From Cyclina sinensis (lineage: Eukaryota > Mollusca > Bivalvia > Venerida > Veneridae): 64,000 nucleotides of DNA. A program made the translations under genes and the position numbers. The stretch lies in contig JAAONU010000013.1 in assembly GCA_012932295.1 (NCBI GenBank), forward strand, positions 9,698,821 to 9,762,820, read 5' to 3'. Below the pieces are notes generated by a model. The model was not told the DNA's origin. It made no database searches and saw only the letters and a program-made list of their open reading frames with translations. The number at the start of each line of letters is the position of its first letter. Positions within the stretch are counted from its first letter, which is position 1. Of this stretch, positions 32,501 through 57,800 are shown one piece after another.

Positions 32501-35500
32501 AGCTTTCTCTAGTTATTGATCGGAATCTGTTTTAAAGATGAAAGTCTCTGTGATCTTGACCTTTGACCTAATAACCTCAAAGTCAATAGGGGTCATTTAC
32601 TTCTGATGACCAACCAGCATACCAAGTTTGGTGAACCTAGGTCAAAATGTTCTCTAGTTATTGATCCGAAACCGTTTTTAAGGATGAAGGTCCCTGTGAG
32701 CTTGACCTTTGACCTAATGACCTCAAAATCAATAGGGGTCATCTACTTGTGATGACCAACCAGCATACCAAGTTTGGTGAACCTTAGTCAAAGCGTTCTC
32801 TAGTTATTGATCGGAAACCGTTTTTAGGATGAAAGTCTCTGTGATCTTGACCTTTGACCTAATGACCTCAAAGTCAATAGGGTCATCTACTGGTGTTGAC
32901 CAACCAGCACTAAGTTTGGTGAACCTAGGTCAAAGCGTTCTCTAGTTATTGATCGGAAACTGTTTTTAGGATGAAAGTCTGTGAGCTTGACCTTTGACCT
33001 AATGACCTCAAAGTCAATTGAAGTCATCTACTGGTAATGACCAACCAGCACACCAAGTTTGGTGAACCTAGGTCAAAGCGTTCTCTAGTTATTGATCCGA
33101 AACCGTTTTTAAGGATGAAGGTCCCTGTGAGATTGACCTTTGACCTAATGACCTCAAAATCAATAGGGGTCATCTAATGGTGATGACCAACCAGCAAACC
33201 AAGTGTGGTGAACCTAGGTCAAAGCGTTCTCTAGTTATTGATCTGAAACAAAGTGTCTACCGACGGACCGACCGACAGACCTACAGACTGACTGACATTT
33301 GCAAAACTATATGCCCCCTCATCTTCGATGGGGGGCATAAAAATGCTACTTTTTGCTTAATCAGGGGGGGCATAAGTCCGCAGACCTCCAATAAATTTTT
33401 GTCAAAATACACAGGTTCACATGCTGACAACTACTTTTCAAAAGTTTCATGGCTCTAGCAGTTAAAGGTTTGGAGTTACATGTGACACAAACCAGTCTAC
33501 ATACGGACAGTGTGCAAAAGGGACAGCAGACGGACGGACAAGGGCATAACTATAAGCACCCCCCACCCCCACCAAGTGGTGGGGGGGCATAAAAACCCTT
33601 AAGGCAGGGCCAACAGGTAACCCAGAAATTTAAATTGAACAAACTTTGTAGAAGTCTACCAGGCTCTGCTACATAATAAGTATCTAGACTCCAGGCCCTT
33701 CAGCCCAGGTAAAAAGATTTTAAAAGTTTTTTTTATGACCCCCTTCGATGGGTCTAATAGTGACACAAGGTCCAAATACTGAGCAATCTTGATCTTGATT
33801 TACTAGACATCTCTACACACTAAATTTTAGAGCTCTTGAACTAATGGTTTTTGACAATATCTTTAAAAAAATCTTTTTATATAGAATGTACAACCACCAG
33901 AGTTCTGCATGGAATGGAATCTTAACAAATTTGGTAGAACTTCATGCAAAGAACATCTCCACTGGGTTTCATCAAATTTAGACCAGTGGTTTCAGAGGAA
34001 ATGATGTTTATGGCAAGTGGAAGTGTATGACAAATGGAATGGTAACATGATAGCTCACCATGAGCCTCTGGCAACGGAACAAGATAGAATTATAATACCA
34101 ACCTCTGGTACACATTTCATCTTGTTTAGACTTGATGCAACAAACTTCCAGGACTTGGCGGCACATACGCTGGTCAGTGTCTTTTATAGCAGCAATCTCC
34201 TCATAGTAATCATCGCAGCGGTCACTCCTTTTGGCCCAGTCTGTCCCCAGCCCACAACACACATTTACAATCTGTGTCATATCAGCTGAAGAAGAAACAG
34301 TAAAGAGCAGGGATCCAGTAGCAGTGATATCAAAATATGGCAATAAAGGGCCATTACTATTAGATCTAGGCCAAAATGGTTTCAGTTAAATGTATGCCTA
34401 CACATATCTGCTGGTAATGTTACTTTTAATTCTATACTGTCTTCCAAATTGTGATTTAATAAAATTTAACAATGACTATCTTGATACTGGCTCTTTAAGT
34501 TAAGAACATCTCTAGCAATATCCATGTCAAGGTATTAATAACTGGCCAATGAATATAAATTATAACTATAACTCTGCAAGTCGGACGTGTCGCCTGACAA
34601 TAGCATACCAGTTATTTAACTTTTTTTCTATGGAATGGGGAATTTATAGGTCCCAGACAAGAATTAAGTATGAAAAATTAAACAAGAGGGCCATGATGGC
34701 CCTGGATCGCTCACCTGAGTACTTTGGCTGTAGGTTTGCTGTTAAGCAGTATTTCATTTTTTAATTGAAAATATCTAAGTGCCTTCAAACCAAATATGTA
34801 AAACATCAGTCAATAAATAAAGGCTCTATGACAGAAAGTAGAAATATCTATTATAAGCTATGGTGACCTTGACCTCGACCCAGTGACCTCAAACCCTACA
34901 CATGGGTAGAGGTCCATGCAAGGAACCTATATACTGAATATCAAAGATATTGGTCTATAAATGAAGGCTTTATGAGGTACAGTAGATAAATCTATTTTTA
35001 GCCTCCGTGACCTTTAACCTAATCTAATAATGTGAACAACCAAACAAGCTTTCTGACAAACTGCCAGGATATTTGGACTGAAACAGTAGCCTCTAGAGCC
35101 TTAACAAGATATTTCTATTTTTGGGCTCTGTGACCTAGTTTTTTACCCCAGGTGACCGATAATCGAACCTGACCTAGAAACCATCAAAATAACCTTTCTG
35201 ACATATTTCCAGAATATTTGGGCTGAAAATGTTACCTGTAGAGTGTAAACAAGGTTTTTCCAAATTTAAGCTCTGTGACCTAGTTTTTTACCCCAGATGA
35301 CCCATATTCGAAATTGGGCTAGAAATCATTCATACAACCTTTCTGACATATTTCCAGGATATTTGGGCTGAAAATGTTACCTCTAGAGTGTTAACAAGAT
35401 TTTTCCATATTCAGGCTGTGTGACCTAGTTTTTGACCCCAGATGACCCATATTCGAACTTGACCTAGAAATCATCGAAACAACCTATCTGACATATTTCC

Positions 35501-38500
35501 AGGATATTTGGGCTGAAAATGTTACCTCTAGAGTGTTTACAAGGTTTTTCCATATACAGGCTGTGTGACCTAGTTTTGGAGCCCACATGACCCATATTCC
35601 AACTTGAGCTAGAAATCATCTTAACAAGCTTTCTGACAGTTTTTCAGAAAATTTGGGCTAAAAATGTTACCTCTAGAGTGTTAACAAGGTTTTACCATAT
35701 TTGGGCTGTGTGACCTAGTTTTTGAACCCACATGACCCATATTCAAAACTGAGCTAGAAATCATCAAAACAACCTTCCTGACATATTTCCAGGATATTTT
35801 GGCTGAAACAGTAGCCTCTAGAGCCTTAACAAGATATTTCTATTTTTGGGCTCTGTGACCTAGTTTTTTACCCCAGATGACCCATATTTGAACTTGACCT
35901 AGAAACCATCGAAATAACCTTTCTGACATATTTCCAGAATATTTGGGCTGAAAATGTTACCTGTAGAGTGTAAACAAGGTTTTTCCAAATTCAAGCTCTG
36001 TGACCTAGTTTTTGACCCCAGATGACCCATATTCGAAATTGGGCTAGAAATCATCAATACAACCTTTCTGACATATTTCCAGGATATTTCGGCTGAAAAT
36101 GTTACCTCTAGAGTGTTAACAAGGTTTTTCCATATTCAGGCTGTGTGACCTAGTTTTTGACCCCAGATGACCCATATTCGAACTTGAGCTAGAAATCATG
36201 GAAACAACCTTTCTGACATATTTCCAGGATATTTGGGCTGAAAATGTTACCTCTAGAGTGTTAACAAGGTTTTTCCATATACAGGCTGTGTGACCTAGTT
36301 TTGGAGTCCACATGACCCATATTCCAACTTGAGCTAGAAATCATCTTAACAAGCTTTCTGACAGTTTTTCAGGAAATTTGGGCTAAAAATGTAGCCTCTA
36401 GAGTGTTAACAAGGTTTTACCATATTTGGGCTGTGTAACCTAGTTTTTGACCCCACATGACCCATATTCAAACTTGAGCTAGAAATCATCAAAACAACCT
36501 TTCTGACATATTTCCAGGATATTTTGGCTGAAAATGTTACCTCTAGAGTGATAAAAAGGTTTTTCCATATTTCGTCTCAGTGACCTAGTTTTTGACCCCA
36601 GATGACCCATATTCGAACCTGGGCTAGAAATAATCCAAATAACCTTTCTGACATATTACAAGGATATATGGGCTGAAAATGTTACCTCTTCAGTGTTAAC
36701 AAGGTTTTTCCATATTTGGGCTCTGTGACCTAGTTTTTGACCCCAGATGACCCATATTCGAACTTGAGCTAGAAATCATGGAAACAACCTTTCTGACAAA
36801 TTTCCAGATTATTTGGGCTGAAAATGTAGCCTCTAGAGTGTTAACAAGAATGTTCTATTTTTGGGCTCTGTGACCTAGTTTTTGACCCCAGATGACCCAT
36901 ATTTGAACTTGAGCTAGAAATCATAGAAGCAACCTTTATGACAAATTTCCAGATTATTTGGGCTAAAAACATTACCTCTAGAGTGTTAACAAGATTTTTC
37001 TATTTTTGGGCTCCTTGACCTAGTTTTTGATCCCATATGACCCATATTCGAACTCGTCCGAGTAATTACTGGGAAAAACATCCTGACCAAGTTTCGTGAC
37101 AATTGGAGCAAAAATGTGACCAGTAGAGTGTTAACGAACTAAATGTGAACGGACGACGGACGACGGACATTCATCGATCCTAATAGCTCACCCTGAGCCA
37201 GCTCAGGTGAGCTAAAAAGGGCAATACTAAAAAGTTATGCAAAAGAGAATTATATTTCTTGGGCACTGCACCTCTCCACAGTGAGTTCTATTCACCTATG
37301 AAGTTTCAAGTTGATATCTTCAATGCCTTTTGAGTTATGCCCCGGACAAGAATTAAGTATGAAAAATTAAAAAAGGGCAATAACTAAAAAGTTATGCAAA
37401 AGAGAATTATATTTCTTGGGCACTGCACCTCTCCACAATGAGATCTATTCACCTATGAAGTTTCAAGTTGATATCTCCAGTACTTTTAGAGTTATACCCC
37501 AGACAAGCATATTCACCTATGAAGTTCCAAGTTGATACCTCCAGTACTTTGAGAGTTATGCCCTTGACAAGAAAATTGGGACGCTGCCGCCGACACCGAT
37601 GAGTACACCACAAGTAACAACATGTGTCCCCTGACTATAGTCAGGTGACACAAAAACTAGGAATATGTTGTCAAAAATAAAACCAAAGAGTTCAAAATTG
37701 CAATATACCTTTGAGCGTTATCTTCATGAAAAATAATATTCATAGCATTTACCCGTAGTTTTTTAAAAAAAAAATCTTTATTATTTTATCAAATCTTTTT
37801 TATCAGTAAAAATTAAATTGTCAATATAAGTAACTGTAGAGCATTTTAGTCTTCAACTGTGAAAATGACTTTTTCAGATGCATTTACCGGTACATTATGA
37901 CCTTGACATTCCCCTAGATACATGTATGTGCAAAATTATTAAAATCTCTATAAGCATAAAAGTTATAGCCAAGTCCAGCTGAATTACACTTATGAATGTT
38001 GATGTGTAAGTATGACCTTGACTTACTCACGATCAAGGTACACATTTAAGTTAGCAAAATCAGTTAAAATCTCAAGTAAAAGTTAAAGCTCAGACAAGCT
38101 AAAATTGTTTATTACCTTTGACATCATATTATGACCTTGACCTTTGAGAAACAGACCTTGTCCTTTTGACAACTATGTCTTACAAGGTACATGATAGTTC
38201 ATATTTGAGACCCTATTTTAAAATCATTTGATGCACAGCAGACTTATACCCAAGACAATTTACACATCTTTTACATTTGATATCTCTGTGTGACCTTGAC
38301 CTTTGAGAACCACTTGGTTCTTAACTGCAACACTGTCTCACCAAGGCTCATTTTGTGCAAACATGTTTTAAAAACCCACAGACAAGCTAAATTACACATC
38401 TTTGACATTTTATATCTCAGTGTGACCTTGACCTTTGAGAAACACTTGGTTCTTAACTGCAACATTGTCTCACCAAGGCTCATTTTGTGCAAACATGTTT

Positions 38501-40199
38501 TAAACAAGAAATGTTTGTTAAACATACATGCCCCCCAGCAGCAGCTAATTGCTTGTGTTTGGGCCAAAGTGTTCGCTAGTTATTGATCAGAAACAGTTTT
38601 TAGAATCAAGGTCCCTGTGGCCTTGACCTTTGACCTAATGACCTCAAAATCAATAGGGGTCATCTACTGGTGATGACCAACCGGCATACCAAGTTTGGTG
38701 AACCTAAGTCAAAGTGTTCTCTAGTTATTGATCGGAAACCGTTTTTAGGATGAAAGTCTCTGTGAGCTTGACCTTTGACCTAATGACCTCAAAATCAATA
38801 GGGGTCATCTACTGGTGATGACCAACCAGCATACCAAGTTTGGTGAACCTAGGTCAAAGCGTTCTCTAGTTATTGATCAGAAACAGTTTTTAGGATGAAG
38901 GTCCCTGTGAGCTTGACCTTTGACCTCAAAATCAATAGGGATCATCTACTGTTGATGACCAACCAGCATACCAAGTTTGGTGAACTTAGGTTAAAGCTTT
39001 CTCTAGTTATTGATCGGAAACCGTTTTTATGATGAAGGTCCCTTTGAGCTTGACCTTTGACCTAATGACCTCAAAATCAATAGGGGTCATCTACTGGTGA
39101 TGACCAACCAGCATACCAAGTTTGGTGAACCTAGGTCAAAGCGTTCTCTAGTTATTGATCGGAAACCGTTTTTAGGATGAAGGTCCCTGTGAGCTTGACC
39201 TTTGACCTAATGACCTCAAAATCAATAGGGGTCATCTACTGTTGATGACCAACCAGCATACCAAGTTTGATGAACTTAGGTCAAAGCAATCTCTAGTTAT
39301 TGATTGGAAACGAAGTGTCTACCGACGGACCGACTGAAAGACCGACCCACCGACCGACATTTGCAAAACTATATGCCCCCTCATCTTCGATGGGAGGCAT
39401 AAAAACCACATACAAGCTAATTTACACATTTTTTAAAATTTGATATCTCAGTGTGACCTTGACCTTTGAGAAACACTTGGATCTTAACTGCTACACTGTC
39501 TCACCAAGGCTCATTTTGTGCAAACATGTTTTAAAATGCCACATACGATGACAAAGTTATGGCCCTTACAAAATCAGACTGATGTAAAAACATGCACTGA
39601 CAGACATCAAAATGCCATTCTGACAACCAAGTCGAGCTAACTGTAAGCAGACTTGCCAACAACATTAACAATGCACTTTCTTGTTGTAGACATAATGCTG
39701 TAATAACTCAGCACTTTCAGTAAATAGTAAAATCACAAAAGAAAGAAAGAAAGAAGGAGAGAAGGAAAGAGAGAAAGAAAGAAAGATCTTGATTTTTTGT
39801 TTTTGAGATCAATTTTACTTTTTTTTGCAAATGTTATGGAAAATTTTTACTACCAAAATAAAAGCCTTTCATTCAAGTTATTGCCTTTCAATTGCTTAAT
39901 ATGAAAGGTCATCAATTATCACTATCTAAAGTGGTCACCAGACACTCTAATTCTGTTAATCTTTTGAAATGCAAGATTTAAGGTTAATCAAAGTATTATC
40001 TCCAAAATTTTCTTTCAGAAAACTTTTTAATTGTATTCAGAAGTTTCTTGTGACCAATGAACAATATTTATTCTAATACTTTTATACACTGATAATCATT
40101 TTCTACTGAAAAATAAAAAAATGACTTACCCTGGACTGAACAGAGATATAAACCAACCAGGATAACTGAAGTTCCAAACATTTTTTGCATAATTTCCAT
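2379..40199 (-). CDS. FBLN1: Fibulin-1 homologue, complete gene, two alternative C-termini
   Basis: Secreted extracellular-matrix glycoprotein; in vertebrates fibulin-1 binds fibronectin, nidogen and basement-membrane partners. I assembled 15 shared exons plus alternative ends: 40130-40199, 34103-34285, 25869-25942, 23199-23355, 21958-22131, 21380-21427, 20314-20445, 12596-12736, 12109-12297, 11105-11245, 10437-10562, 9235-9357, 8451-8570, 7805-7933, 7042-7186, then either 6100-6505 (C type, 2358 nt) or 3340-3593 plus 2379-2524 (D type, 2352 nt). Both sums divide by three with no internal stop. Order: signal peptide (1 to about 24), anaphylatoxin-like modules (about 25-155), acidic linker, EGF-like modules (about 162-650) mostly opening with DIDEC-type calcium sites, then the fibulin-type C-terminal domain. 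At 785 or 783 residues it is somewhat longer than human fibulin-1 (about 700). The [22 protein letters not shown] and [10 protein letters not shown] stretches identify fibulin-1 rather than hemicentin or fibrillin. Introns total about 35 kb and hold most of the repeats in the window. Confidence 0.93.
2525..3339 (-). other. FBLN1: FBLN1 D-form last intron
   Basis: 815 bp between the two D-type exons. AT-rich with homopolymer runs; no repeat or other feature recognised. Confidence 0.7.
3340..3593 (-). CDS. FBLN1: FBLN1 alternative exon, first half of D-type C-terminal domain
   Basis: 84 codons plus split codons. [24 protein letters not shown] and [18 protein letters not shown] follow the pattern of the vertebrate fibulin-1D domain (CxxxCxPxDxxC, then SLPTF, then ITEGN). 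The entry phase equals that of the C-type exon and the exit phase (1) fits exon 2379-2524. The polypyrimidine tract before the acceptor (TTATATTGCCAG) is poor, as expected of a regulated exon. Confidence 0.85.
3640..3662 (+). repeat. (TG)n microsatellite, (CA)n in the FBLN1 transcript
   Basis: About eleven TG dinucleotides. On the transcribed strand this is a CA-repeat ending 46 nt upstream of the D-type exon acceptor at 3593. Confidence 0.9.
3663..6099. other. FBLN1: FBLN1 intron between C-type and D-type exons
   Basis: Contains the C-form 3'UTR next to 6099, the 26-bp minisatellite at 5165-5612, and otherwise AT-rich sequence without recognisable genes. Confidence 0.6.
5165..5612 (+). repeat. 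26-bp minisatellite, about 17 copies
   Basis: Unit GTGACCATTACTCTTGTGGA plus AGGGAT, varying mainly at ATT/ATA and at single substitutions; one partial copy near 5220. It is open in one minus frame only because three 26-bp units make 26 codons. Confidence 0.92.
6100..6505 (-). CDS. FBLN1: FBLN1 terminal exon, C-type C-terminal domain
   Basis: 135 codons including TAA at 6100-6102. [27 protein letters not shown] and [12 protein letters not shown] align with the start of vertebrate fibulin-1C (HENREC...LPLRITYYHLSFPTN). The end ([15 protein letters not shown]) corresponds to the conserved closing beta-strand. One NVT sequon is present. Acceptor TTTTGTAG. A single exon codes the whole domain, as in vertebrates. 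Confidence 0.92.
7042..7186 (-). CDS. FBLN1: FBLN1 exon 15: last shared EGF-like module
   Basis: Residues about 603-650: [29 protein letters not shown]. The exon ends with two extra bases (AG). Both alternative 3' exons start with T, so the same Ser codon is completed whichever C-terminus is joined. This is the branch point of the C/D choice. Confidence 0.9.
7805..7933 (-). CDS. FBLN1: FBLN1 exon 14: calcium-binding EGF-like module
   Basis: Residues about 560-602: [32 protein letters not shown]. Matches the penultimate EGF of fibulin-1; phase 1 to phase 1. Confidence 0.92.
8020..8410 (+). repeat. 30-bp minisatellite in FBLN1 intron 13
   Basis: About 12 diverged copies of a unit reading TTATGGCCAACTGACTGTTC then TATAGATTTA. 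The unit length is a multiple of three, so one frame stays open as a ten-residue [10 protein letters not shown] repeat. The array is intronic and there is no start context, so I do not call it a gene. Confidence 0.88.
8451..8570 (-). CDS. FBLN1: FBLN1 exon 13: calcium-binding EGF-like module
   Basis: Residues about 520-559: [31 protein letters not shown] 30-bp minisatellite starts within 100 bp downstream of its donor (GTAAGG). Confidence 0.92.
9235..9357 (-). CDS. FBLN1: FBLN1 exon 12: EGF-like module
   Basis: Residues about 479-519: [28 protein letters not shown]. The usual D-I-D-E start is D-K-N-E here, but the calcium-liganding positions are retained. Confidence 0.92.
10193..10301 (+). 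repeat. 36-bp tandem repeat, 3 near-identical copies
   Basis: GATTGTAAGCTTAGTTCTAC then TAGATATGTCAGATAA, starting at 10194, 10230 and 10266 with essentially no divergence, hence recent. Confidence 0.92.
10437..10562 (-). CDS. FBLN1: FBLN1 exon 11: calcium-binding EGF-like module
   Basis: Residues about 437-478: [30 protein letters not shown]. Standard six-cysteine module; phase 1 to phase 1. Confidence 0.92.
11105..11245 (-). CDS. FBLN1: FBLN1 exon 10: calcium-binding EGF-like module
   Basis: Residues about 390-436: [34 protein letters not shown]. Calcium-site consensus with Asn at the third position. Acceptor TCTTTCAG, donor GTATGT. Confidence 0.92.
11578..11645 (+). repeat. tRNA-like SINE head fragment
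   Basis: TGGCTCAGTGG fits a Pol III A box, and GGGTTTGAATC, about 45 bp later, is close to a B box. No cloverleaf with seven-base acceptor stem forms, so this is a decayed tRNA-derived head rather than a tRNA gene. Confidence 0.4.
12109..12297 (-). CDS. FBLN1: FBLN1 exon 9: EGF-like module plus extra half-module
   Basis: 63 codons (residues about 327-389): [29 protein letters not shown]...QC, then a further [13 protein letters not shown] loop. The extra two-cysteine loop resembles the free-standing exon 6 unit, as if such a unit had fused to a normal EGF exon. Confidence 0.9.
   Translation of the reverse strand: MRMNVLSERTTVGQDMSVSTLRDHSGAIPNGAQMVSDSILPQANVRDLSVPVDLGLTAVAYV
12596..12736 (-). 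CDS. FBLN1: FBLN1 exon 8: calcium-binding EGF-like module
   Basis: Residues about 280-326: [38 protein letters not shown]. The lengthened last loop (C-R-x3-PC-G-x-G) is the fibulin-type EGF variant. It is separated from exon 7 by a 7.6 kb intron full of satellite. Confidence 0.92.
13435..15235 (+). repeat. 26-bp minisatellite array with inverted blocks
   Basis: Unit CAGCTTCTACAGCACCTGTC then TCAAGA, about 65 copies with variant subfamilies (CACAATATTGCTT, CAATTGCAACAAAA). The blocks 13975-14095 and 14460-14610 run in the opposite orientation (CTGTAGAAGCTG) and closely resemble each other, so the array contains duplicated, inverted segments. Confidence 0.92.
15235..15834. other. Spacer between satellite arrays, tandem-core element remnant
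   Basis: Contains ACAGACTGATGGCCGGATGG and GTGCGGACAGACTGACA followed by a small hairpin TATGCCTCCCTTTGGGTGTATAA near 15690-15713. This resembles the terminal hairpin of the tandem-core elements seen later in the window. Confidence 0.4.
15835..18890 (+). repeat. ~3-kb array of 47-bp and 42-bp units
   Basis: About 65 units with consensus CTATAAAACACTTAGCAACC, CTACAATGACTGAATAGC, TTTGCCACA. A recurrent variant lacks five bases (TAGCCACAC instead of TAGCTTTGCCACAC), giving 42 bp; CTACAATGGCTG and CTAAAATGACTG subtypes alternate. Units at 18440-18760 are the most uniform, so expansion was probably recent there. Confidence 0.93.
19662..19824. repeat. Long imperfect palindrome (~80-bp arms), hairpin MITE-like
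   Basis: GTGGAAGATGGGAATTTATT and GTGAACACCATATG on the left are mirrored as CATATGGTGTTCAC and AATAAATTCTCATCTTCCAC on the right, around the centre TGGCTGCGCCA. A related half-site is at 42838-42905. No coding content. Confidence 0.85.
20314..20445 (-). CDS. FBLN1: FBLN1 exon 7: calcium-binding EGF-like module
   Basis: Residues about 236-279: [12 protein letters not shown], then [12 protein letters not shown] and a final Cys. Full six-cysteine EGF module with the D-x-D-E calcium site and an aromatic-Gly turn; phase 1 to phase 1. Confidence 0.92.
20446..21379 (-). other. FBLN1: FBLN1 intron 6, nothing recognised
   Basis: AT-rich intron. A degenerate B-box-like GGGATTCAAAC at 20639-20649 hints at a SINE remnant, but no boundaries can be drawn. 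Confidence 0.5.
21380..21427 (-). CDS. FBLN1: FBLN1 exon 6: 16-codon half-EGF exon
   Basis: Only 48 nt, coding [16 protein letters not shown], which is the final loop of an EGF-like module with two cysteines. Flanked by acceptor ATTTTCAG and donor GTACGA, phase 1 on both sides, so it can be skipped or included without changing frame. It is too short for simple gene finders. Confidence 0.8.
21958..22131 (-). CDS. FBLN1: FBLN1 exon 5: linker and first EGF-like module
   Basis: Residues about 162-219: a Pro/Glu/Thr linker, then [25 protein letters not shown] and DGRTC, a complete EGF-like module. Donor GTAAGA after one base; the codon completed with exon 6 is Asn. Confidence 0.88.
22132..23198 (-). 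other. FBLN1: FBLN1 intron 4, nothing recognised
   Basis: AT-rich. Short diverged stretches such as AAAGGGTCATAACTTTGTAA recall cores of the tandem-core elements, without clear termini. Confidence 0.5.
23199..23355 (-). CDS. FBLN1: FBLN1 exon 4: second anaphylatoxin-like module and acidic linker
   Basis: Residues about 110-161. ECCSCCQMG, then MECTSP, then FMQCCVG match the CC..CC...C...CC layout of the third fibulin-1 anaphylatoxin module. An acidic stretch ([13 protein letters not shown]) then leads to the EGF region. Confidence 0.88.
23991..25560 (-). mobile_element. Tandem-core (Helentron-like) element G, decayed
   Basis: The low-coordinate end reads ACAAGAGATGTCGGAATGAC: the shared ACWAGAR terminus and a hairpin (ATGTC..TGACAT). 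The core has about ten diverged ~145-bp units containing GACCTTGACCTTTGACCT and GAGTTATTGAGCAGAAA. The opposite end is not recognisable. No coding capacity. Confidence 0.6.
25869..25942 (-). CDS. FBLN1: FBLN1 exon 3: anaphylatoxin-region linker
   Basis: 24 codons (residues about 85-109) with one cysteine (GGRCAVRED), joining phase 1 to phase 0. It supplies the start of the second anaphylatoxin-like module, whose CC pairs are in the next exon. Acceptor TTTTTCAG and donor GTATAT. Confidence 0.82.
26305..27185 (+). pseudogene. Decayed mariner-type transposase
   Basis: Fragments in shifting frames follow the order of a mariner transposase. They are an N-terminal [19 protein letters not shown] (helix-turn-helix end and acidic tail), [13 protein letters not shown] (the RW..xLTxEQK motif), a GDET-like segment near 26760, and [14 protein letters not shown] near 27100-27140 (the mariner PHPPYSPDLAPCDFFL catalytic motif). 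Several stops and frameshifts interrupt it, so it cannot be active. It lies in FBLN1 intron 2. Confidence 0.8.
27314..28793. mobile_element. Non-autonomous DNA transposon with terminal inverted repeats
   Basis: The left end GACCGTT at 27314 and right end AACGGTC at 28793 are inverted repeats, each flanked by TA (27312-27313 and 28794-28795). A second conserved block (CCGCCATTAAGGGACTGC on the left; its near-complement on the right near 28710-28740) lies inside each end, so the inverted region spans some 70-100 bp. The 1.48-kb interior has no coding region. A TA target duplication suggests the Tc1/mariner group, but I cannot assign a family. Confidence 0.7.
29423..29448 (+). repeat. G-rich tract
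   Basis: CCGGGGGGGGGGGGCC followed by eight or more G. Likely assembly-sensitive; capable of G-quadruplex formation. Confidence 0.8.
29979..30420 (-). mobile_element. Tandem-core-type element terminus J, remnant
   Basis: ACTAGAGCTATCACTGAATG then TGATT shows the shared ACWAGAR terminus and a hairpin ATCAC..GTGAT. Two diverged repeat units follow (CACCAA(G)TTTCAAGTTAATAGTCC type). The other end is not found. Confidence 0.5.
30781..33591 (-). mobile_element. Tandem-core element I, interrupted by element A1
   Basis: Starts ACTAGAGATGTGTCCAT and ends with a hairpin (GCACCCCCCAC...GTGGTGGGGGGGCATA, to 33591). The core repeats GTCTAAAAATGCTACTTTTT begin near 30884, 31047, 31209, 31339, 31469 and 31599, so unit length falls from ~162 to 130 bp. 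Element A1 sits inside it between two halves of one unit. Confidence 0.7.
31734..33339 (-). mobile_element. Tandem-core element A1 (1606 bp), nested in element I
   Basis: Left end ACAAGAAATGTTTGAAAAAC with hairpin ATGTTT..AACAT; right end hairpin ATGCCCCCTCATCTTCGATG then GGGGGCATA; ATGCCCCCC recurs just inside the left end as a subterminal repeat. About ten ~146-bp units carry TTGACCTTTGACCTAATGAC and GTTCTCTAGTTATTGATC. The target unit reads through if the element is cut out between two T on the minus strand. Confidence 0.78.
34103..34285 (-). CDS. FBLN1: FBLN1 exon 2: first anaphylatoxin-like module
   Basis: Residues about 24-84. Cysteine pattern VCCGLG...RC...MCRQ...VCC is the paired-cysteine layout of the fibulin-1 N-terminal anaphylatoxin-like modules. 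Acceptor TTCTTCAG, donor GTTGGT, phase 1 to phase 1. Confidence 0.88.
34482..37652 (-). mobile_element. Tandem-core element H, interrupted by element B
   Basis: Right end hairpin GTGTCCCCTGACTATAGTCA then GGTGACACA. A matching subterminal GTGTCGCCTGAC lies near 34589. The unit GGGCAATA(A)CTAAAAAGTTAT, CACTGCACCTCTCCACA appears twice after element B. The left boundary is uncertain. Confidence 0.5.
34682..37214 (-). mobile_element. Tandem-core element B (2533 bp), nested in element H
   Basis: Left end ACAAGAGGGCCATGATGGCC with a perfect hairpin (GGGCCAT/ATGGCCC), then GCTCACCTGAG as subterminal repeat. Right end hairpin AGCTCACC...AGGTGAGCTA. About 15 units of ~145 bp: TGACCTAGTTTTTGACCCCA, GATGACCCATATTCGAACTT, GTTACCTCTAGAGTGTTAAC. 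The uninterrupted target (AAAAATTAAAAAAGGGCAAT) is preserved at 37353-37372 in the duplicated flank. Confidence 0.8.
38100..39560 (+). repeat. ~110-130-bp tandem array hosting element A2
   Basis: Units with GTGACCTTGACCTTTGAGAA, CTCACCAAGGCTCATTTTGT and GCAAACATGTTTTAAAA, at least two before and one after A2. Gives an internal view of the uninterrupted site. Confidence 0.65.
38504..39401 (-). mobile_element. Tandem-core element A2 (898 bp), second copy of family A
   Basis: Same ends as A1 (ACAAGAAATGTTTGTTAAAC at left; ATGCCCCCTCATCTTCGATG then GGAGGCATA at right). Only five core units of the TTGACCTTTGACCTAATGAC type, so the two copies differ chiefly in unit number. It is inserted in another tandem array (CACTTGGTTCTTAACTGCAA units at 38100-38500 and 39410-39600). 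Confidence 0.78.
39741..39785 (+). repeat. (GAAA)n/(GGAA)n microsatellite
   Basis: Purine-only tract of about 45 bp made of GAAA with GGA interruptions, in FBLN1 intron 1. Confidence 0.9.
40130..40199 (-). CDS. FBLN1: FBLN1 exon 1: start codon and signal peptide
   Basis: ATG at 40197-40199 opens a 23-codon segment with a hydrophobic run ([15 protein letters not shown]) typical of a secretory signal peptide. It ends in a GTAAGT donor after one extra base. That phase joins exactly to exon 2, giving Ala at the junction and a plausible cleavage near it. No coding similarity supports the exon beyond the signal-peptide character and the phase, so it is slightly less certain than the EGF exons. Confidence 0.8.
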
Positions 40200-43812: not shown

Positions 43813-44891
43813 TTGCCAAGAGATATTACCAAATGAACACCTTGATAGAAGTGACCATAATTACACACCAATGGTTTTTTTTTCAACCCAAAAGGTTATG
43901 TTAAATCAGTATTTCTTTGCTTTACAATGTGATGCAGAGAACCATATTTAACAGCTTATAGATACTATATACCTGGGTAGGGGAATGCATTTTTAGTTTT
44001 TAAAAATAACAATTGCTAACTTAATCTACAGCTGATCACTTGGGTTAATAACAAACGTGTAAGGAGATGCTAACAAAATCTAATGCTACTTTGTTAGATA
44101 CCAGTCTTTGAGTAACACATGTTAACTAAAAGACAGCTACTTATCTTACCTTTTAAACTATTCAAGACTTGCGTCTATTCAAGAAGCAGATTTTCCATTG
44201 AGCAGACAAATGATACAGATATTTTCAATTCCTTTGAAACTTAAACCCTTCTAGATATTTTTCTTACTTTACATTAACACATAAAAAGCATAAATGCTCT
44301 CTGGGGATTTAAATGAAGACAATATAACAAGGAATTTTGATTTATTATTTTATTTTTGGGAGGTACCTGCCTGATTGAAACATGTCAAGTCTCGTAAAAG
44401 AGTTCAACAGATTTTTTTTTTAGTAATAATAAGGTAGATAAATCACCTCACAAATTTAAAGTGTGTCACTCTATATATATATTCTGCATCATCAAAGACA
44501 AGACTGCAAGATGCTTGCCACAGCTCTGTCAGTCAAATAAGCTAATTAGGACATGATCACAAGCTGCATCCCATCATTGTGCAAGATTGCAGCCAATCAC
44601 TGGTGAAATAATTAATTCCCAAGATCAAGTCATATACGTTTAACTAAGTTTTAGACTTAAAAACCAACTGGCTTCATACCTGACTGACAGGTAATCATTA
44701 ACCCTTAACCTGCTTGAACCGAGTGATAAGCCTTTGCCACCAGTATAGAGCCAGGCCAGCCTGCACATCCGTGCAATCTGACCAGGCTCTATACTGTTGG
44801 TGGCTCCATTTTTTGTATTTTGATACTGATGTACATATATATGTAGCCGGGTAAAGGTATATGGTGATAAATCGATAAGGCAGAACCGTGT

Positions 44892-44964
44892 GGCTTGGTA
44901 GCTCAGTTGGTAGAGTGTCCGCCCTGTAAGCGGAAGGCCCTGGGTTCGAGTCCCGGTCGAGCCA
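44892..44964 (+). tRNA. tRNA-like gene in 5' LTR, Thr(TGT)-like with C33
   Basis: A 73-base cloverleaf: acceptor GGCTTGG / TCGAGCC (with G-T pairs), D arm GCTC/GAGT, anticodon stem TCCGC/GCGGA, T arm CTGGG-TTCGAGT-CCCGG, discriminator A. The seven-base loop CCTGTAA puts TGT at 34-36 but C, not T, at 33. A box (TAGCTCAGTTGG) and B box (GGTTCGAGTCC) are intact and TTTTT follows at 44968-44972. More probably a Pol III promoter module of the element than a working tRNA. Confidence 0.7.
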
Positions 44965-45162
44965 CGATTTTTCACCACCTGTTACATTTGGCGCCCAACG
45001 TGAATAACCTACGTTATAATTTGGCTACTGCTTCGGCACCTCGGGAATGTGTTTACAATATTCTCTGTGACTCTGAGAATTCGGGACGAATTCTAAATTT
45101 GGAGGGGGTATATGTAGCCGGGTAAAGGTATATGGTGATAAATCGATAAGGCAGAACCGTGT

Positions 45163-45235
45163 GGCTTGGTAGCTCAGTTGGTAGAGTGTCCGCCCTGTAA
45201 GCGGAAGGCCCTGGGTTTGAGTCCCGGTCGAGCCA
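45163..45235 (+). tRNA. tRNA-like gene in 3' LTR (second copy)
   Basis: Identical to the copy at 44892 except for one C-to-T change in the T loop/B box (GGTTTGAGTCC). The cloverleaf and T5 terminator are retained. Confidence 0.65.
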
Positions 45236-45761
45236 CGATTTTTCACCACCTGTTACACTGAAATCCCATAAGTTATGAATGGACTGTTTCAAATTCAAAG
45301 CTGGGCAAATCCATTACAAAAATTCAGCAGGTTAAGGGTTCACAGGTAGAAAAAGGCAGAGAAATGTGATGAGCCAAAGGTTGGTATGAGTGTTGTTCAT
45401 AAGGTCATTTGTTAGACGTCTGTTAGCACTGCACTCAAGTAGAAGTAGAAGAGGCTGCTGCCCTTTATTTTAGAAAGGCATGACCCATACAAGAGGAACT
45501 GAGGGTTAAGAATTTTAGCTATTTAATAACCACTTCACAACTCTTTACAGTATTACATGTCATAGTTTATTTTTTTATTTTTCAAGGAACATTTATTGTC
45601 ACATCTACAGATAAATCTGCAGGTTTCCAAAACAAATCTTTAGAGTAAATTTACTGTCTCGACTTTTACTAATATCATTGCACCTTTCAAATGCATTTTT
45701 AAGAAAACTCTTATCAACAAAGGGGAAGAACTATAAAGAAATCAGGTGTTATCCCAACTGA

Positions 45762-45805: not shown

Positions 45806-48800
45806 CTGAAAGATAAAATATACAAACAATCATTACAGTCAATTAAACACACAACAAACAGAATTCATGAGACCAAATAGTTGTTTATTTACTGTCTGTT
45901 CCAACAACAAAAAAAGTGTAAAAGTTGTCTTTTGAAAACATGCTGTAGAAGATGTTAATTGTTACTTTTTATTTTTTTTTAAACATGGTTTGAATTCTGA
46001 TAAATGATAATTGATATTTTTTTAAAACAAAGCCAGCACAATTCAAAGACTTAAGAAAGTCTTTATTATTTTTGGGGAGGTTCTCAGTGTGCCTTCTTGG
46101 TCATAAAGGAAGTATTCACCTAAGGTTTTGAGATCTGTGTAAAACATAATTTTACAAAGATTCTGTTTTTATTGCTTCTGCATATGTGTGACACAGAAAT
46201 GTCAAGCACAAATAGTCAAAGCTGAACAGTTCTCAAGGGTCTCAAAACAATTCTTGAGAATGTAATTGTAGCCAAGTGTTCGAAGAACAAATGGTCAAAT
46301 GAAAGGTCACAAAAACTCTCCAACAGTGTTTCTTTTGGAACCTATCTTTTTGGTTTTGTTCTTAAAGTTGCTGACTTTAAACAAATGTATCTCTCACTGA
46401 TTGATGGTCATTGCTTTGAGCCCCACTACCAACCATTTATGTAAGAAAGTTGGCAGATTCTATGGAGAATGGAAGTCTTGTACTGGTCCTGCTACTAGGT
46501 AAAATGCTGCCAATATCACTTTGACTATTAGAGGGTGTTTAACTCAATCAAAGTTTACTCTAACTCTTTTGATCACAAACTAATACGTAACATGTGTTTA
46601 AAATAAACACAGAATTTGGAATTAAGCTTGTAACAGTTAATGAAATAGCTAACCTGAATAAACATACAAACAGAATCATACCTGAACTTGGTACATTAAA
46701 ATGGCCACCAGGATCTGGTCTCTTTTGAACCCCTACATTCCCACCTGGCAAATGATGTGGTATTCTCTGATTGGTCGACTTTGAATTGTTCTGGACTGTA
46801 CCATTATCATCAAAGTCTTGTTCCATGTCAATAGAATGGTTCCAAATTGAAAGTTCATCTGTGACAATATGTAAAAAACATCAAATTTATGTAAAATTAT
46901 GCCAACCTTATATCTATCACAAATCAAAACATAGGCCGCGATGATCCAAATACCTTTCTTCTGTTAGTATGAAATGGGCCAAAAACCTTTTCCTTAATAA
47001 CAACAGATTTTGCTATATTCATACCTTTGTAATTTAAATGTTAAATAAAGGCTTATCTAGGTTTTCATAAACCAAAACGAGAGATCTGTTTTCAGATGTA
47101 ACTAGAAATGTGCCCACAGGACACAGGTGTTCCCACCTTGGGCCTTTGTCAAAAAGAACATACATACAGACAAAGTCACAGGCAAACAGGCAAAAGCAAA
47201 TCTTATTTGCCACATGCTGTATAAGTAGGGGCATAACCATTGAACTTAAATCTAAGATTTTTTAAAATGCCCATTATTTATATTTAAAGGGCCATTATTG
47301 TGGTCATACGGTGACAAACTGTACAAAAAATCTCCAGGTGCACTACAACTCATCATGGTTAACATTCTTCGCAAGGTTTCATACTTCCATTTCAAATACT
47401 TAACCCTGAATGTGCTGAAATTTTGTAATGGATTTGCCCAGCTTTGAATTTGGAACAGTCCATTCAAAGTTTAAGGGATTTCAATATCAAAATACAAAAA
47501 TGGAGCTACCAACAGTATAGAGCCTGGTCAGACTGCACGCATGTGCAGGCTGGCCTGGTTCTATACTGGTGGCAAAGGCTAAACACTCTTGGTTCCAGCA
47601 GGTTAAGGGTTAAGGAGATATGCACAACACAAACTTTGAAATGCTGCCTTTTACCATTTCAAGGGCTATTACTGTGGTCATACTGGGATGAACTTCAAAC
47701 AAAACCCCAGTTGCACAACAACTCATCATGGTGAACATTCATGGAAGGTTTCATGATTCCACTTGAAATACTTAAGGAGCTATGTGTGACACAAACTTTA
47801 AAATGCCAACGTTAACTATTTCAATGGTTGTAACAGTGATCATATCGGGACAAGCTGCAAACAAGACCACAGGTGCACAACAACTCATCATGGTGAATAT
47901 TCATGGAAGGTTTCATTTCAAATACTTTAGGACCTACATGAGACACAAACTTTAAAATGCCCAGTTTTACTATTTCAAAGGATACTCGGATGAGCTGCAA
48001 ACAAAAACCCAGGTGCACAACAACTCATCATGGTGAATATTCATGGAAGGTTTCATTATACCATTTCAAAAACTTTAGGAGTTATGCGCAACAGAAACTT
48101 TAAAATGCCTATTTTTACATTTCAATTCAAGGGCAACGACTGTGGTCATCTTGGGATGAGCTGCAAATGATACCCAGGTGCACAACAACGTTCATGTAAG
48201 TTTTTGTGATATCATTTCAAATACTTTACAAGCTATGTGCGACACAAACTTTTAAGAGGGATGGACAGACAACAAGGGGAAATCCTATTCCCCCTCCTGA
48301 TTGGGGCATAAAAAGCTGTCTCACATCCCTAATTTGTACATACAGTTATGTGACAACTGCTCCACTTTTTTTCTTTGAAAACTGGAGCTAAATAGGGAAT
48401 TAGTTGTTTTTCCATATGTCTATATCGCCACCAAACCCCAGGCTGGGGTCAATTCTGATTCAAGGAAGATAATTTGAAAAATCTTTGTAAAGGTCACATA
48501 TAAGATGCTACATACCAAAGATCTCATTCTACAGCCTATGATTTCTGACAAGAAGATTTTCAAAAAGTTTGTATTCAAAAACCCCTGGGATGGAGCCAGT
48601 TTTGACCCCAGGGACGTAACTTGTTTGAGCCTGATGGTCTATGGAACAATACTACATACAAAATATCTAATCTCAAGGGCATTTCAGACAAGGGCATTAT
48701 CCCTTTTATAATTTTAGAAATATGCTCTGGACAAGCATTTTAAGATTAACAAAATCAAGAAATAAATTCAAAATTAGGGGCAGCTTGAGTTATTGTTCTT

Positions 48801-51800
48801 AAACACTTCTCTTTCTTCTACTCCCCTCTATCAATGTGCCACATATCAAACTAGAAATGGTTTTTGATTGAACAAAAACATATGTCTCCCCCCAGCCAGT
48901 TGCTGCAGGCAGTATTGAATCAGACGATTGTAAAATTTGACATTTAACCTCCAAGTGTGACCTTGACCTTGAGACACCACACCCTCAAAGTGGGTTCTGC
49001 ATGTCACCTTGATGAGGTGAACATCTGACCCAAGTTTCATAAAAATCCTTCAAGGGCTTTGGAAGATACAGAGTGGACATGATTTTGTGGCATTTGACAT
49101 TTAACCTTCAAGTGTGACCTTGACCTTGAGACACCACACCCGCAAAGTGGGTTCTGCATGTCACCTTGATGAGTTGAACATCTGACCCAAGTTTCATAAA
49201 AATCCTTCAAGGGCTTTGGTAGACACAGAGCGGACACGATTTTGTGACGGACAGACGGACGGACGGACAGACAACCGGGGAAAAACAATATGTCTCCCCC
49301 AATGAGGTGAACATCTGACCCAAGTTTCATAAAAATCCTTCAAGGGCTTTTGAAGATACAGAGCGGACACGAATTTGTGGCATTTGACTTTTAACCTCCA
49401 AGTGTGATTTTGACCTTGAGACACCACACCCGCGAAGTGGGTTCTGCACGTCACCTTGATGAGGTGAACATCTGACCCAAGTTTCATAAAAATCCTTCAA
49501 AGGCTTTTGAAGATACAGAGCGGACACAATTTTGTTGCATTTGACATTTAACCTCCAAGTGTGACCTTGACCTTGAGACACCATACCCGCAAAGTGGGTT
49601 CTGCACGTCGTCTTGATGAAGTGAACATCTGACCCAAGTTTCATAAAAATCCTTCAAGGGCTTTGGAAGATACAGAGCGGACACGATTTTGTGACGGACA
49701 GACGGACGGACGGACAACCAGGGGAAAAACAATATGTCTCCCCCATTTTTGGGGGGAGACATAATAAATTCTTTTAATAGTTTTAGAGATATGCTCTGGA
49801 CAAGCAAAATGTACTAAAGGAGATAATAAGAAAGCTAGACAAGGTGAGTTCATGTTCTTGTGCAATTCACTTACTATCAATGCCCTCTATCACTGTACGT
49901 AGTTTCAAGTAAATCAGTTCACTGATGCTTGACTTATTCTCTCGACAAAATCAGAGAAACATTAAAAAAATGAAATAAAGGGAGATAACTGAACAAGAGC
50001 GATCAGTGATCACATGTGTTACCTGATGATAGCCAATGAAACAGTTGTATTGAGAGGTGATTGGAAAGTTTGTTGGAATTGTAAATTGACTGTATGGATG
50101 TTTGAGTGTTTTCTGTAATGTGGAAGAAGTAAGAATTACCCAACTGATGATGCTGAACATTGTACTCTTGGAGGATACCATTATGTGCCATGGGTGGGCA
50201 CAGTTAAAAAACACAGTTTTGTGGTAGCTGAAGTATGTTTCAAGTATACTGAAACTGGTTTCTTGTATATTAGTAAAGACCAGATCCAAGGTGGTATTGT
50301 TGATAGTTGTTGGCATGTGAATTTTTTGCTGCAGCCCATATGTTTCCATGTGTGTTTCTAACTGCTGATTCCTCTGTCCTTCACAGTTGAAATCTCCCAT
50401 CATAATGACAACCCAGTTATACCTTCCAATGCAGAACTAATGTCTTTTGTAATGGTTTTCAACTTTGTATTAGGCTTTGCATATACATGTACAGAGAAGA
50501 CATGGATACCCAGTGGTTGTGTTATGTGGATGTACACTATTTCAACTTGAGTGTCAAAGTAGTCTGGACAAACTTAAAAAATAAAAATCATTAAAGGGCC
50601 ATAACTCTGATAAAAATCATTGAACTGGAAAATGTCAATGATATGCACCACTAGACTTAGTATTGATCATTCCTGTAAAGATTGGATGAAATTGTACCAG
50701 TAGGTTTTCAGAAGTAGTGCGGACAAGTTTTGTGATGGATGGACAGATGGACGGACAGATGACAGAGAAGTGATCCCTATATGTCATGGCTACTTTGTAG
50801 CATGTCGCAGTTACTTTGTAGCAGGCGACACAAAAATCATTAAGAGGCCAAAACACCTTCTGTTTTTATTCAAGGGCCATAACTCTGCCAAAAATCATTC
50901 AACCAAAAAACCCTTTAATTAAGCACAAGTACTTGAGGTACCAATCATTCCTGCAACATTTCATTCAAATTGCATTTATAGTTGTATAAGAGAAATAGTC
51001 TGGACAAACTTTAAAAATAAAAATCATTAAAGGGCTATAACTCTGACAAAAATCATTGAACTGGAAAATGCCAATGATATGCACATATAGACTTGGTACT
51101 GATCATTCCTGTAAAGTTTGGATGAATTTGCACCAATAGTTTTTGAAAAATAGCCTGGACAAGTTTTGTGATGGACGGACAGACAGGCGATGGAGAAGTG
51201 ATCCCTATATGTCGCAGCTACTGTGCAGCAGATGACACAAAAATGGAGCAAGGCAGCGTTGCAATTATTCAACATGGCACTTCAAGCATACACTCATTAT
51301 CAATACCTCAAATATCAACTAAATCCCATTTATAATTCTAGAGTTATGCTCTGGACAAGCATTATAACAGATTAACTAAGCTTAAAAATAGAAATAACTC
51401 AAAACTGGGGGCAGCTAGAGTTATGGTTCTTGAACACTGCACCTCCTGCCAATCTACTCTATTAATGTGCTAATATCAAGTAAATGCCTTTCATAGATTT
51501 AGGGATATGCCCTGGACAAACAAAATGTACCAAGGGGAGATAATGAGAAAACTAGACAAGATGAGTTATAGTTCTTGTGCACTGCACTTACTCTCAATGT
51601 CCTCTATCATCTTATGAAATCCCTCCATTGGTGTCTGAGTTATACTCTGGACAAAAGTGGACAGACAGACAAGTCGCTGACTATAATTATGCTCTTCCTT
51701 TGGGGAGCATAAAAAAATCTTGGCATTCATCTTGAAACAGACATTAGATGAAAAAGAGGTCTTTTTTACCCTTATATGTCTTTATTATCCTTATCCATAG

Positions 51801-54800: not shown

Positions 54801-57800
54801 GGCCCCTGACTGTTAAGCTGACCTGGGTTGCCATTGTTTAATGGTCCTGTTACAGATGACGATCTCTTCAGCTGATTACTGCCACCATCTTGAATACAGT
54901 TTTCTTTATTCTTTTGAATCATGCTTTCTGTCCTATCACTTTCATATGACATACTTTTCGACTTTTGCTGCATGTGTCTTACTGAGGTACCAGGTAATTT
55001 CAAGTTCCCACAATCCCTTGCAGTATTTTTTGCTGAGTCATTACATGTTTCAACTTCCTTTGAGTTAACACAGTTTTGTTGTAAGACATTAACAATATTT
55101 GAAGAAGAATCACTTCTTTTAACACTGTTGCGTATTTTATCAGCAGATTCAAGTCCCGACCTGCGGGCTTTTTGAATACTAGGGTCTAGAACAGAATGCT
55201 TCATATCTTCCATGTTATACTGCTCCGGTGGCTAAAAGAAAGTTTACAAATGTATTATGAAATACATGTTTCTGTAAAACATAACAAAATGCGAAAAATG
55301 CACAAGTAAAATTAGCGCACACAGCTATTACTAATTTGTATTCCTGTGGTTGTATGTATATGTACCTGGAAAACTCTTCTCAAGATTTCAACATTTTTTT
55401 AAATACAGATTCCCAATTTCCAGAAAGTACTGTCAAGTTATATCTTACTGATATAATATTTACAGTAGCATGGCTAAAACTCGTTCAAGCGAATGAACAC
55501 GAGTCATTAAACGGAAATCATAATTTTTGCAATACATCTCTTTTTCATGACAAAGTAGCTAAACCTGGACATTATATCTAGTATCTCCTTTTCAGAACAG
55601 AAATCAAGCAGGTTGAACAAACACAGAAATATAAATCTTATATTAAAATACATGGGCATATTTATAAATTACCGCAACATAAATCATAAAAAAATTCATG
55701 AGATGAAAATTTACTAACTTTCTTTGGAGCCCTATTGATACACTTTAGGTAATCTTTGTCTCCTAGACAATTTCCCATGGCATTTCCAAAACTCCTGAAA
55801 AGGAAAATCATGTGAATACATAAGACAAGTATTTAAATAGGCATACTCTAAAATTAATTGGGATACTGTATGTATTTCTTTGGCTTTTTCTGTAAACAAA
55901 GAGTTAAAAAAATCCGTTGGGCATAGTTACAGACACTAAGAAATTTAAGTGTTCATTTACAATAAACTGCTATCCAACCAAATTTTGTACTACAGTTTCT
56001 CTACATAAAGGCTAATGTTAATGAATTCAGCTAACCTGTTGTACCTGGAATTTTTTATTTCATCTGTTCAATATCAGACACATTAACATGATTTTGAAGG
56101 AAATGGAATCCTCTAAATTTTGGAAGAGTGTCATTTAAAACAAGTACAAAACTGATGTCCAGAAAAAACTATTTTACATGTACTAGTTTGTTCTATTTAA
56201 CTCTGCATTATTTAATGTTCAAGTAAATATACCAATAGATAACTGATTGACTGATCTTACTTTACTGACATACAGTGTCATGTTCTGGGTAGATGCCATA
56301 GATATCATACAATGACTGGCAATTAAACTTCACTAAAAAAGATCATTTGAATCTTTTTAACAAGTACAAACTCCTCTCAACTTTCAAACCTTATTTTCAT
56401 TAAATCTAAATAAAGAACATGACTACAATACACCTAAACAGGGCTGAAAAATGCTCAGGCATCCTTTCAATACAACATTTTATGGGAAAATGTTTTCTGC
56501 TTACCAAGTATATGACTAAACAAACACATCTTTTATTTACCTACAAGGAAACACAATACATAAACAGATTAAATTCAAATTAAGAAATCTTAAACACTTT
56601 ATACTTCAGTGCTCTCTTCAGCCCATCTGTCACTGCTTCCTTTCTTGCCTTTTCCAGAGACAATGCCTTTGACTTCATTCCTTCACTCACCCCATAACCT
56701 ATATCTTCATGATGAATACCATCCTGTCAGGTAAAACTTGTGTTATTTTTCATCGATTTTCAATCAGACCCTGAAAGATCTTACTGGGTCTTCTTGACAA
56801 GGAAAATGAAATTTTAAACATAATTTTCACCATATTTCAAGTTTTTAGCACAGTTCCTTTCGAGTAAAAGCACTATCACATTAGCAGTTCAGACAAAACT
56901 GTTCTTACAAAACTGTAAGCTGTCAGGTTAGCCCTCGGGGAGAGGTTGTTGGTTACTTAAGCAGAATGCTGCCTAGTACAAGTAACCAAGGCAAAATTAA
57001 CTTTCAGTGTATTATTATGCAAAGTTTTTAATAACCACAGTGTACCTATTCTCGTAAGAAATGAATATCCTTTAACAGTTCTTTTTGTTCACATTAATAT
57101 AAAAGCCTTTCAAACTTCTTAATAGCATTCTTCCTTTGTCCTTTAATGGTAAAAAAAATATATTTCCGGTTTATTCTTGCCAAGAAGTTGTCTCTTGTAC
57201 TTACACATAAATATATATTATATGTATAAAACTTACCTTTAGTATAACTTTGACAAAAGCACTGACTCCAACATAGTATTTTCCATTGTAGTGATCCACA
57301 AAATCTGTAACGTAACCAATGGCAAAGATTACTTCTTATCATCTGTTAAAAATTCATTAGAACAAAAAAACTTGGAGCATATTTGCTGTCTGCTTATTAC
57401 AATGTTGTTCTTTTCCTTCATCTATCACCGTTAACAAAAAGCTCAAAACAGCTAAAATTGTTCACTTGAAGTAACATTCTTCAGCGAAACCATAGTTATG
57501 GTCAAGCGGATATCTTGTTTGTATAAATTCTACCTTTGATAACTATGTCAGGAATCAATTCTTCGGCTCAGTTGTCTAGAGCATTGATTTTTCATGCTAA
57601 TCATCACGAAGTGAGCACGAGTTCCTATCACACATAGGATGGCAATTTCTAATGCAATAAATCTTTCTGTTAACCCTTAGCCAGCTAAATATATTACATG
57701 GACTTGTCCATCTTTCAATTTGGACAGATCCATTAATTGTTTACAGGGGTGCTTATTGCCAGCAGCAGGAGAAGAGTTCAGGACAAAATTTCATTAAACC

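Follow-up and report, generated by a model that had tools for sequence, protein, structure and literature searches.

Two nearly identical direct repeats, each with a tRNA-like unit, lie close together in the 64-kb window studied here (the whole stretch of DNA that was analysed, 64,000 nucleotides, with a G+C content of 35.3%). Are they the two ends of a mobile element, or did a tRNA gene simply duplicate in place? The original prediction was a miniature LTR retrotransposon (TRIM) whose LTRs each hold a tRNA-like unit of the Pol III type, and this claim is supported by an empty target site, a target site duplication, a primer-binding site (PBS), a polypurine tract (PPT) and relatives in other contigs. 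Overall, we assign a probability of about 0.88 to the reading that the locus is a non-autonomous Helenus-type miniature LTR retrotransposon, which was put into an older hairpin repeat, presumably by Gypsy-class enzymes.

Anatomy of the element

The direct repeats span positions 44838-44986 and 45109-45257 (149 nt each). They differ at a single position (C44947 to T45218), which is a C-to-T change at a CpG inside the B box. The LTR cores within them are 145 bp long and agree with the predicted 145-bp repeats with one difference. The element and its parts are as follows, from left to right.

44826..44829 (left) and 45258..45261 (right), plus strand: target site duplication CTGA
44830..44841, plus strand: surplus bases TGTACATATATA, 12 bp, between the left CTGA and the LTR core
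44842..44986, plus strand: 5' LTR core, 145 bp, TGTAGCC...TGTTACA, one difference from the 3' core
44892..44964, plus strand: tRNA-Thr(TGT)-like unit of the 5' LTR (Rfam tRNA model and ARAGORN)
44899-44910 and 44943-44953, plus strand: promoter boxes of the 5' LTR, A box TAGCTCAGTTGG and B box GGTTCGAGTCC
44923-44929, plus strand: anticodon loop of the 5' tRNA-like unit, CCTGTAA
44968..44972, plus strand: T5 stretch of the 5' LTR, Pol III terminator-like
44989..45002, plus strand: primer-binding site TGGCGCCCAACGTG, presumably of tRNA-Lys type
45003..45100, plus strand: non-coding interior
45101..45108, plus strand: polypurine tract GGAGGGGG
45109..45112, plus strand: TATA between the polypurine tract and the 3' LTR core
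45113..45257, plus strand: 3' LTR core, 145 bp
45163..45235, plus strand: tRNA-Thr(TGT)-like unit of the 3' LTR (Rfam tRNA model and ARAGORN)
45214-45224, plus strand: B box of the 3' LTR, carrying the C-to-T change (GGTTTGAGTCC)
45239..45243, plus strand: T5 stretch of the 3' LTR

The element has the predicted size of 428 bp, but the proposed make-up of 145 + 122 + 145 bp had to be revised to 157 + 122 + 149 bp, since the left side carries the 12 surplus bp. The PBS was expected immediately inside the LTR; it begins 2 nt inside the 5' LTR end, at 44989. Searching the window for the first ten bases of the PBS gave a single site, and for their reverse complement none; we take the PBS to match tRNA-Lys. 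The PPT lies before the second repeat, as predicted, and is followed by TATA and then by the LTR core. The interior comes to 122-126 bp. Among stop-to-stop frames that overlap the element, the longest (113 aa) extends out of it. Upstream of the tRNA-like unit, the LTR core provides only ~50 bp, and this U3 holds the motif TATATGG at 44858-44864. Beyond the two LTRs, no further copies of the element were found within the 64-kb window; the other within-window matches to it are a 26-bp match and the palindrome at the left end (see below), both with an E value of 4.1.

Other features of the window

The window also contains several tandem arrays. Two of these (31790-33249 and 38565-39311, period ~145 bp) have much the same unit, and a third array with a period of ~145 bp (35042-37054) has a different one. 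Open frames of up to 191 aa run over a 26/52-bp array at 13458-15238, and a 47-bp array at 15830-18844 comprises ~65 copies. An exon of an ERC/CAST active-zone protein is located at 60174-61202 (Pfam Cast, E 2.6e-21). In a protein search with 60204-61199, the best 120 of 451 hits were considered, and proteins as long as complete ERC were excluded by size, so that oysters and mussels may be missing. The 17 hits with the highest scores share 69-91% identity over 89-100% of the query, and the one named among them is from Dreissena polymorpha (74%). The hit that follows in score drops to 47% over 90%, and lower down short segments of high identity occur (for example 73% over 40%). Gastropods with a name are Batillaria (42% over 76%) and Lottia (68% over 22%). 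These hits weakly suggest that the host is a heterodont clam. Two minus-strand exons (6100-6612 and 20108-20482) encode a fibulin C-terminal domain and a calcium-binding EGF domain and perhaps belong to one gene. The minus-strand ORF at 49951-50436 has no Pfam match at E 0.01; it contains a GDFN motif, which we take to be a piece of a retroelement endonuclease.

Insertion into a hairpin repeat

A hairpin repeat with perfect terminal inverted repeats of 15 bp hosts the element, and the same repeat is found uninterrupted nearby.

44695..44829, plus strand: left part of the interrupted hairpin repeat, with terminal inverted repeat AACCCTTAACCTGCT at 44700-44714
45262..45340, plus strand: right part of the interrupted hairpin repeat, with terminal inverted repeat AGCAGGTTAAGGGTT at 45326-45340
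47402..47616, minus strand: uninterrupted copy of the hairpin repeat (empty site), ~2 kb away

The left flank through CTGA (up to 44829), joined to the right flank from 45262 on, aligned continuously with 47402-47616 (195/216 identities, 3 gaps). At the junction, the empty copy reads ATATTGAAATCCC versus ATACTGAAATCCC in the joined flanks, and the target spot of the empty copy is TTGA, which matches CTGA in three of four positions. Since the flanks align continuously across one CTGA, the 428 bp from 44830 to 45257 came as one insertion and CTGA was duplicated. The predicted CTGA duplication is therefore upheld by the uninterrupted repeat copy. This empty site is the strongest single result of our analysis and needs no outside data; anatomy, insertion and target duplication are all shown at this locus. 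The comparison involves one uninterrupted repeat copy, and a third match (57662-57737) covers the right half of the repeat and stops short of the junction. A chance 4-bp duplication was also considered, with 12 bp separating the left CTGA from the LTR core, and was rejected because the uninterrupted repeat copy joins at this point.

The window is rich in tandem arrays, and the two tRNA-like units, spaced 271 bp from each other, could also go back to a tRNA-Thr gene that was duplicated locally in tandem with its flanks, without any transposition. But the whole CTGA-bounded 428 bp is missing from an otherwise collinear repeat copy, the interior carries a PBS and a PPT, and the LTR boundaries are common to relatives in different flanks (see below). 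The original prediction had itself named this alternative; it was checked at this copy through the empty site, and the outcome speaks against it, so that we regard a local duplication as extremely improbable.

The hairpin repeat also has an inner 30-bp inverted repeat and occurs in three places in the 64-kb window. The second copy (47402-47616) is 90% alike, and the third (57662-57737), which consists of the right half only, 75%. Its hairpin (44726-44809 and 47500-47583) resembles mir-1253 and mir-3129 at 19-23 bits, compared to gathering scores of 103 and 90, respectively. In the available part of a published annotation, 29 'mir-1253' are given for Mercenaria and none for two oysters (PMC9679248). 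These Mercenaria entries may represent the hairpin repeat rather than miRNA genes.

tRNA-like units in the LTRs

The Rfam tRNA model scored the 5' unit with 62.5 bits and the 3' unit with 59.9 bits (gathering score 29), and ARAGORN identified both as Thr(TGT). Across the 64 kb, these two LTR units are the only tRNA calls of the Rfam model and ARAGORN. At gathering scores Rfam gave tRNA only, and 5S rRNA was not found in the LTRs. The A box is identical in both LTRs, and the B box contains GGTTC in the 5' LTR and GGTTT in the 3' LTR. Folding 44891-44975 to minimum energy gives a cloverleaf, yet shuffled sequences fold just as stably (z 0.05). Therefore, the tRNA reading is based on the covariance model and ARAGORN. 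Hence, a tRNA-like unit with A box, B box and T5 is present in each LTR as had been predicted, although the 3' B box is mutated and the energy lends the predicted cloverleaf no weight.

In working tRNAs, the position before the anticodon is nearly always U. The reading of the LTR unit as a working tRNA-Thr is disfavoured, because the anticodon loop CCTGTAA has a C before the anticodon.

Relatives in public contigs

Relatives of the element were seen as chance ORFs in public contigs. They are known from proteins alone, and 11 of them were tested by back-translation, where 'compatible' means that some codon choice yields the motif; plus-strand motifs were tested on eight and minus-strand motifs on three. 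With the plus-frame query (84 aa), 8 of 10 candidates were retained at E <= 1 (E 8.4e-5 to 0.17), three of the eight lying below 1e-3 and five above. All three candidates for the minus-frame query were retained at E <= 0.1 (E 5.9e-12 to 6.4e-9).

These relatives are compatible with the same layout. The sequence GATTTTTCANCTGTTACA, extending from the T-run to the LTR end, is compatible in 8/8 plus-frame relatives (0/300 shuffles each). The LTR end followed by two bases and the PBS is compatible in 4/11 (0/300 shuffles each), that is, in two of the eight plus-frame relatives (P0121, P0122) and two of the three minus-frame relatives (P0129, P0130); back-translation gave no PBS in the frame seen for the remaining 7/11. 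Past the LTR end, five of the other six plus-frame proteins continue into other sequence, with four different continuations, and P0128 stops at the LTR end. P0126 and P0127 share flanks and probably represent one place. This is the pattern to be expected of 3' or solo LTRs at separate sites.

P0130, located on a 319,625-bp contig, aligned with window positions 45271-44840 over 151 columns (40% identity, pairwise tblastn E 3e-27). The alignment crosses LTR, PPT, interior, PBS and LTR, and the window frame contains several stops. P0130 is also compatible with the PPT-LTR junction including TATA (1 of 300 shuffles), and we read it as a putative complete relative with two LTRs. Back-translated in its frame, it cannot yield the B box GGACTCGAACC. 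Pattern scans for family copies gave 0 matches in viral contigs and 0 in prokaryote genome contigs, as expected because the element is an animal one.

P0131 shares the tRNA-like part only and lends support to no other part of the element; we take the sequence beside this stretch to be RT-like. Such an arrangement, together with the tRNA-Thr-like head with its A and B boxes, would fit a tRNA-derived SINE pair, or an internally duplicated SINE, moved by a LINE. However, the element in the window has no 3' tail, and it has 145-bp terminal repeats, a PBS, a PPT, TG...CA ends and a 4-bp duplication. We therefore give a SINE origin hardly any credence.

The odd left end

The surplus bases 44830-44841 are absent from the empty site and therefore belong to the insert. 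The final four (TATA) recur before the 3' LTR core, where the eight bases ahead of them have no counterpart, and together with the LTR start the surplus bases form a 14-base palindrome (44832-44845). In 7/8 plus-frame relatives (P0122-P0128; P0121 is cut short and is outside this comparison), a common start lies 100 nt before the B box, and TGTAGCC at 44842 lies 101 nt before it in the window. Position 44842 was taken as the conserved LTR start because the common start of the relatives agrees to 1 nt; it is the constant spacing that counts here, since the LTR-start motif alone is weak (present in 69-126 of 300 shuffles for those seven). An ancestral 157-bp LTR that lost 8 bp in the 3' copy is disfavoured by the start spacing of the relatives and by the PPT-LTR junction of P0130. 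The surplus left-end bases may be due to a cDNA-end fill-in or be a remnant of an LTR-LTR junction.

A possible replication cycle

Pol III transcription, read-through and a Gypsy partner are what we infer from these features. Directed by the A and B boxes of the 5' LTR, Pol III would initiate close to the tRNA-like unit there. Most transcripts would end at the 5' T5 and yield a pre-tRNA-like RNA, and a minority would read through to the 3' T5 and reach a length of ~350 nt (about 44892 to 45243). The R region, present at both RNA ends, would then consist of the tRNA-like unit and the T5 (~80 nt together), with a U3 of ~50 bp and a U5 of 14 nt (44973-44986). A tRNA-Lys would prime at the PBS, the shared R would permit the strand jump, and the PPT would prime the second strand. 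Finally, a borrowed integrase of the Gypsy type would insert the copy and produce the 4-bp duplication. No autonomous partner was found among the window ORFs examined with Pfam.

Because the PBS lies downstream of the 5' T5, a full-length template can arise only by read-through in the 5' LTR. An efficient terminator at the 5' T5 would block full-length RNA, which counts against the model, as do the mutated 3' B box and the surplus left-end bases. Moreover, tRNA processing enzymes could cut the cloverleaf-like RNA ends.

The position of this T5 speaks against Pol III as the source of full-length RNA and would rather fit a TRIM of the same kind whose transcription by Pol II begins in U3 and whose tRNA-like unit is a passenger (a captured SINE head) without a role in the cycle. 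The TATATGG motif in U3, the B box mutation in the 3' LTR and the incompatibility of P0130 with an intact B box point in the same direction. But the T-run and the following LTR end are compatible in all plus-frame relatives, the LTR core before the tRNA-like unit is short, and the 5' tRNA body retains its high Rfam score. On balance, we consider Pol II transcription with a passenger tRNA unlikely and favour the Pol III cycle described above.

The LTR cores differ by one substitution in 145 sites, which corresponds to 0.0069 per site (95% range 0.0002-0.038; no rate applied). The insertion is probably young. The predicted 'recent' insertion fits this single difference, but the range is wide.

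Significance

A clean, probably young TRIM with tRNA-like LTRs and an empty target copy 2 kb away is useful for testing the role of Pol III. If the host is a heterodont clam, the molluscan range published for Helenus, as far as described in the available text, widens beyond Pteriomorphia.

LTRs like these could also matter for genome annotation. According to the available part of one study, Mercenaria mercenaria has 791 predicted tRNA-Thr, Ostrea edulis 339 and Crassostrea virginica 153. No other isotype reaches 100, apart from Ser in O. edulis (1019) and Ala in Mercenaria (465), and the authors call for a closer look at the enrichment in O. edulis (PMC9679248). As a testable proposal and not as a result, we suggest that LTRs counted as tRNA-Thr would raise such counts in bivalves. 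The link is weakened because 282 of the 339 O. edulis tRNA-Thr have the anticodon AGU (PMC9679248) and the clam element has TGT. The transposable element survey of Mercenaria, according to its available text, used LTRHarvest with the minimum distance between LTRs set to 2500, so an element of this size would be passed over (PMC8905726).

One could go further and propose that heterodont clams harbour an active Helenus lineage in which Pol III sets the transcription unit (R being the tRNA-like unit plus T-run). Two kinds of RNA would result, a pre-tRNA-like one in abundance and, more rarely, a read-through template whose two cloverleaves would need to escape tRNA processing, and copies of this lineage would explain much of the tRNA-Thr excess in clams such as Mercenaria mercenaria. 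Taken as a whole, this proposal is speculative and rather doubtful.

Comparison with known systems

The original prediction considered this kind of element little described. This view has to be abandoned, since the kind was named Helenus by Kojima (2024; PMC10886601), with bivalves among its hosts. Beyond this paper, no other paper on TRIMs with tRNA-derived LTRs was found among the best matches in the open-licence literature. The parallel to the plant element Cassandra that had been drawn at the outset is apt, as the same paper likewise sets Helenus beside Cassandra. Cassandra resembles the clam element in having a Pol III-type small RNA gene in each TRIM LTR (PMC10886601). It differs in that this is 5S rRNA, in its plant hosts and in its size of 565-860 bp, whereas the clam element has a tRNA. 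The nemertean TRIM Ajax, which contains partial 5S rRNA, has the TRIMp3 layout in common with the clam element, but is 5S-derived and makes 5-bp duplications (PMC10886601).

The biv-TRIM element is likewise a TRIM of bivalves, heterodonts included (Satovic 2019; PMC6934838). Its repeats are 202-218 bp long and its interior 77-80 bp, compared to 145 bp and 122-126 bp in the clam element. As far as its description is available, biv-TRIM is without a canonical PBS and its PPT is mostly GGGGAGA, whereas the PBS of the clam element is clear (PMC6934838). The term 'polymerase III' does not occur in the available text of the biv-TRIM paper.

Helenus (TRIMp3) comprises TRIMs with tRNA-derived LTR sequence, PBS and PPT that range from 311 to 1263 bp, with a 4-bp target duplication in animals and LTR boxes of the form TRGCY...YGG (box A) and GGTTC (box B). 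In bivalves, 51 families from five pteriomorph orders are described; seven of them can encode tRNA-Thr, and the bivalve primers include tRNA-Lys. Use of Pol III is unproven for Helenus according to the same source (Kojima 2024; PMC10886601, available text). The 428-bp clam element falls within the Helenus size range, with two LTR cores and a short non-coding interior. It conforms to box A in both LTRs and has GGTTC in the 5' LTR, GGTTT in the 3' LTR being the one deviation. PBS and PPT lie at the interior ends, and the CTGA duplication is 4 bp long. The bivalve host, the tRNA-Thr type unit and the primer class, which we take to be tRNA-Lys, are further likenesses. Two differences stand beside these, namely the surplus left-end bases (12 between CTGA and the LTR core) and the host: the molluscan hosts of Helenus in the available description are all Pteriomorphia, whereas that of the clam element looks, if only faintly, heterodont. 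Matched to Helenus by its published description, the clam element looks like a new Helenus-type member.
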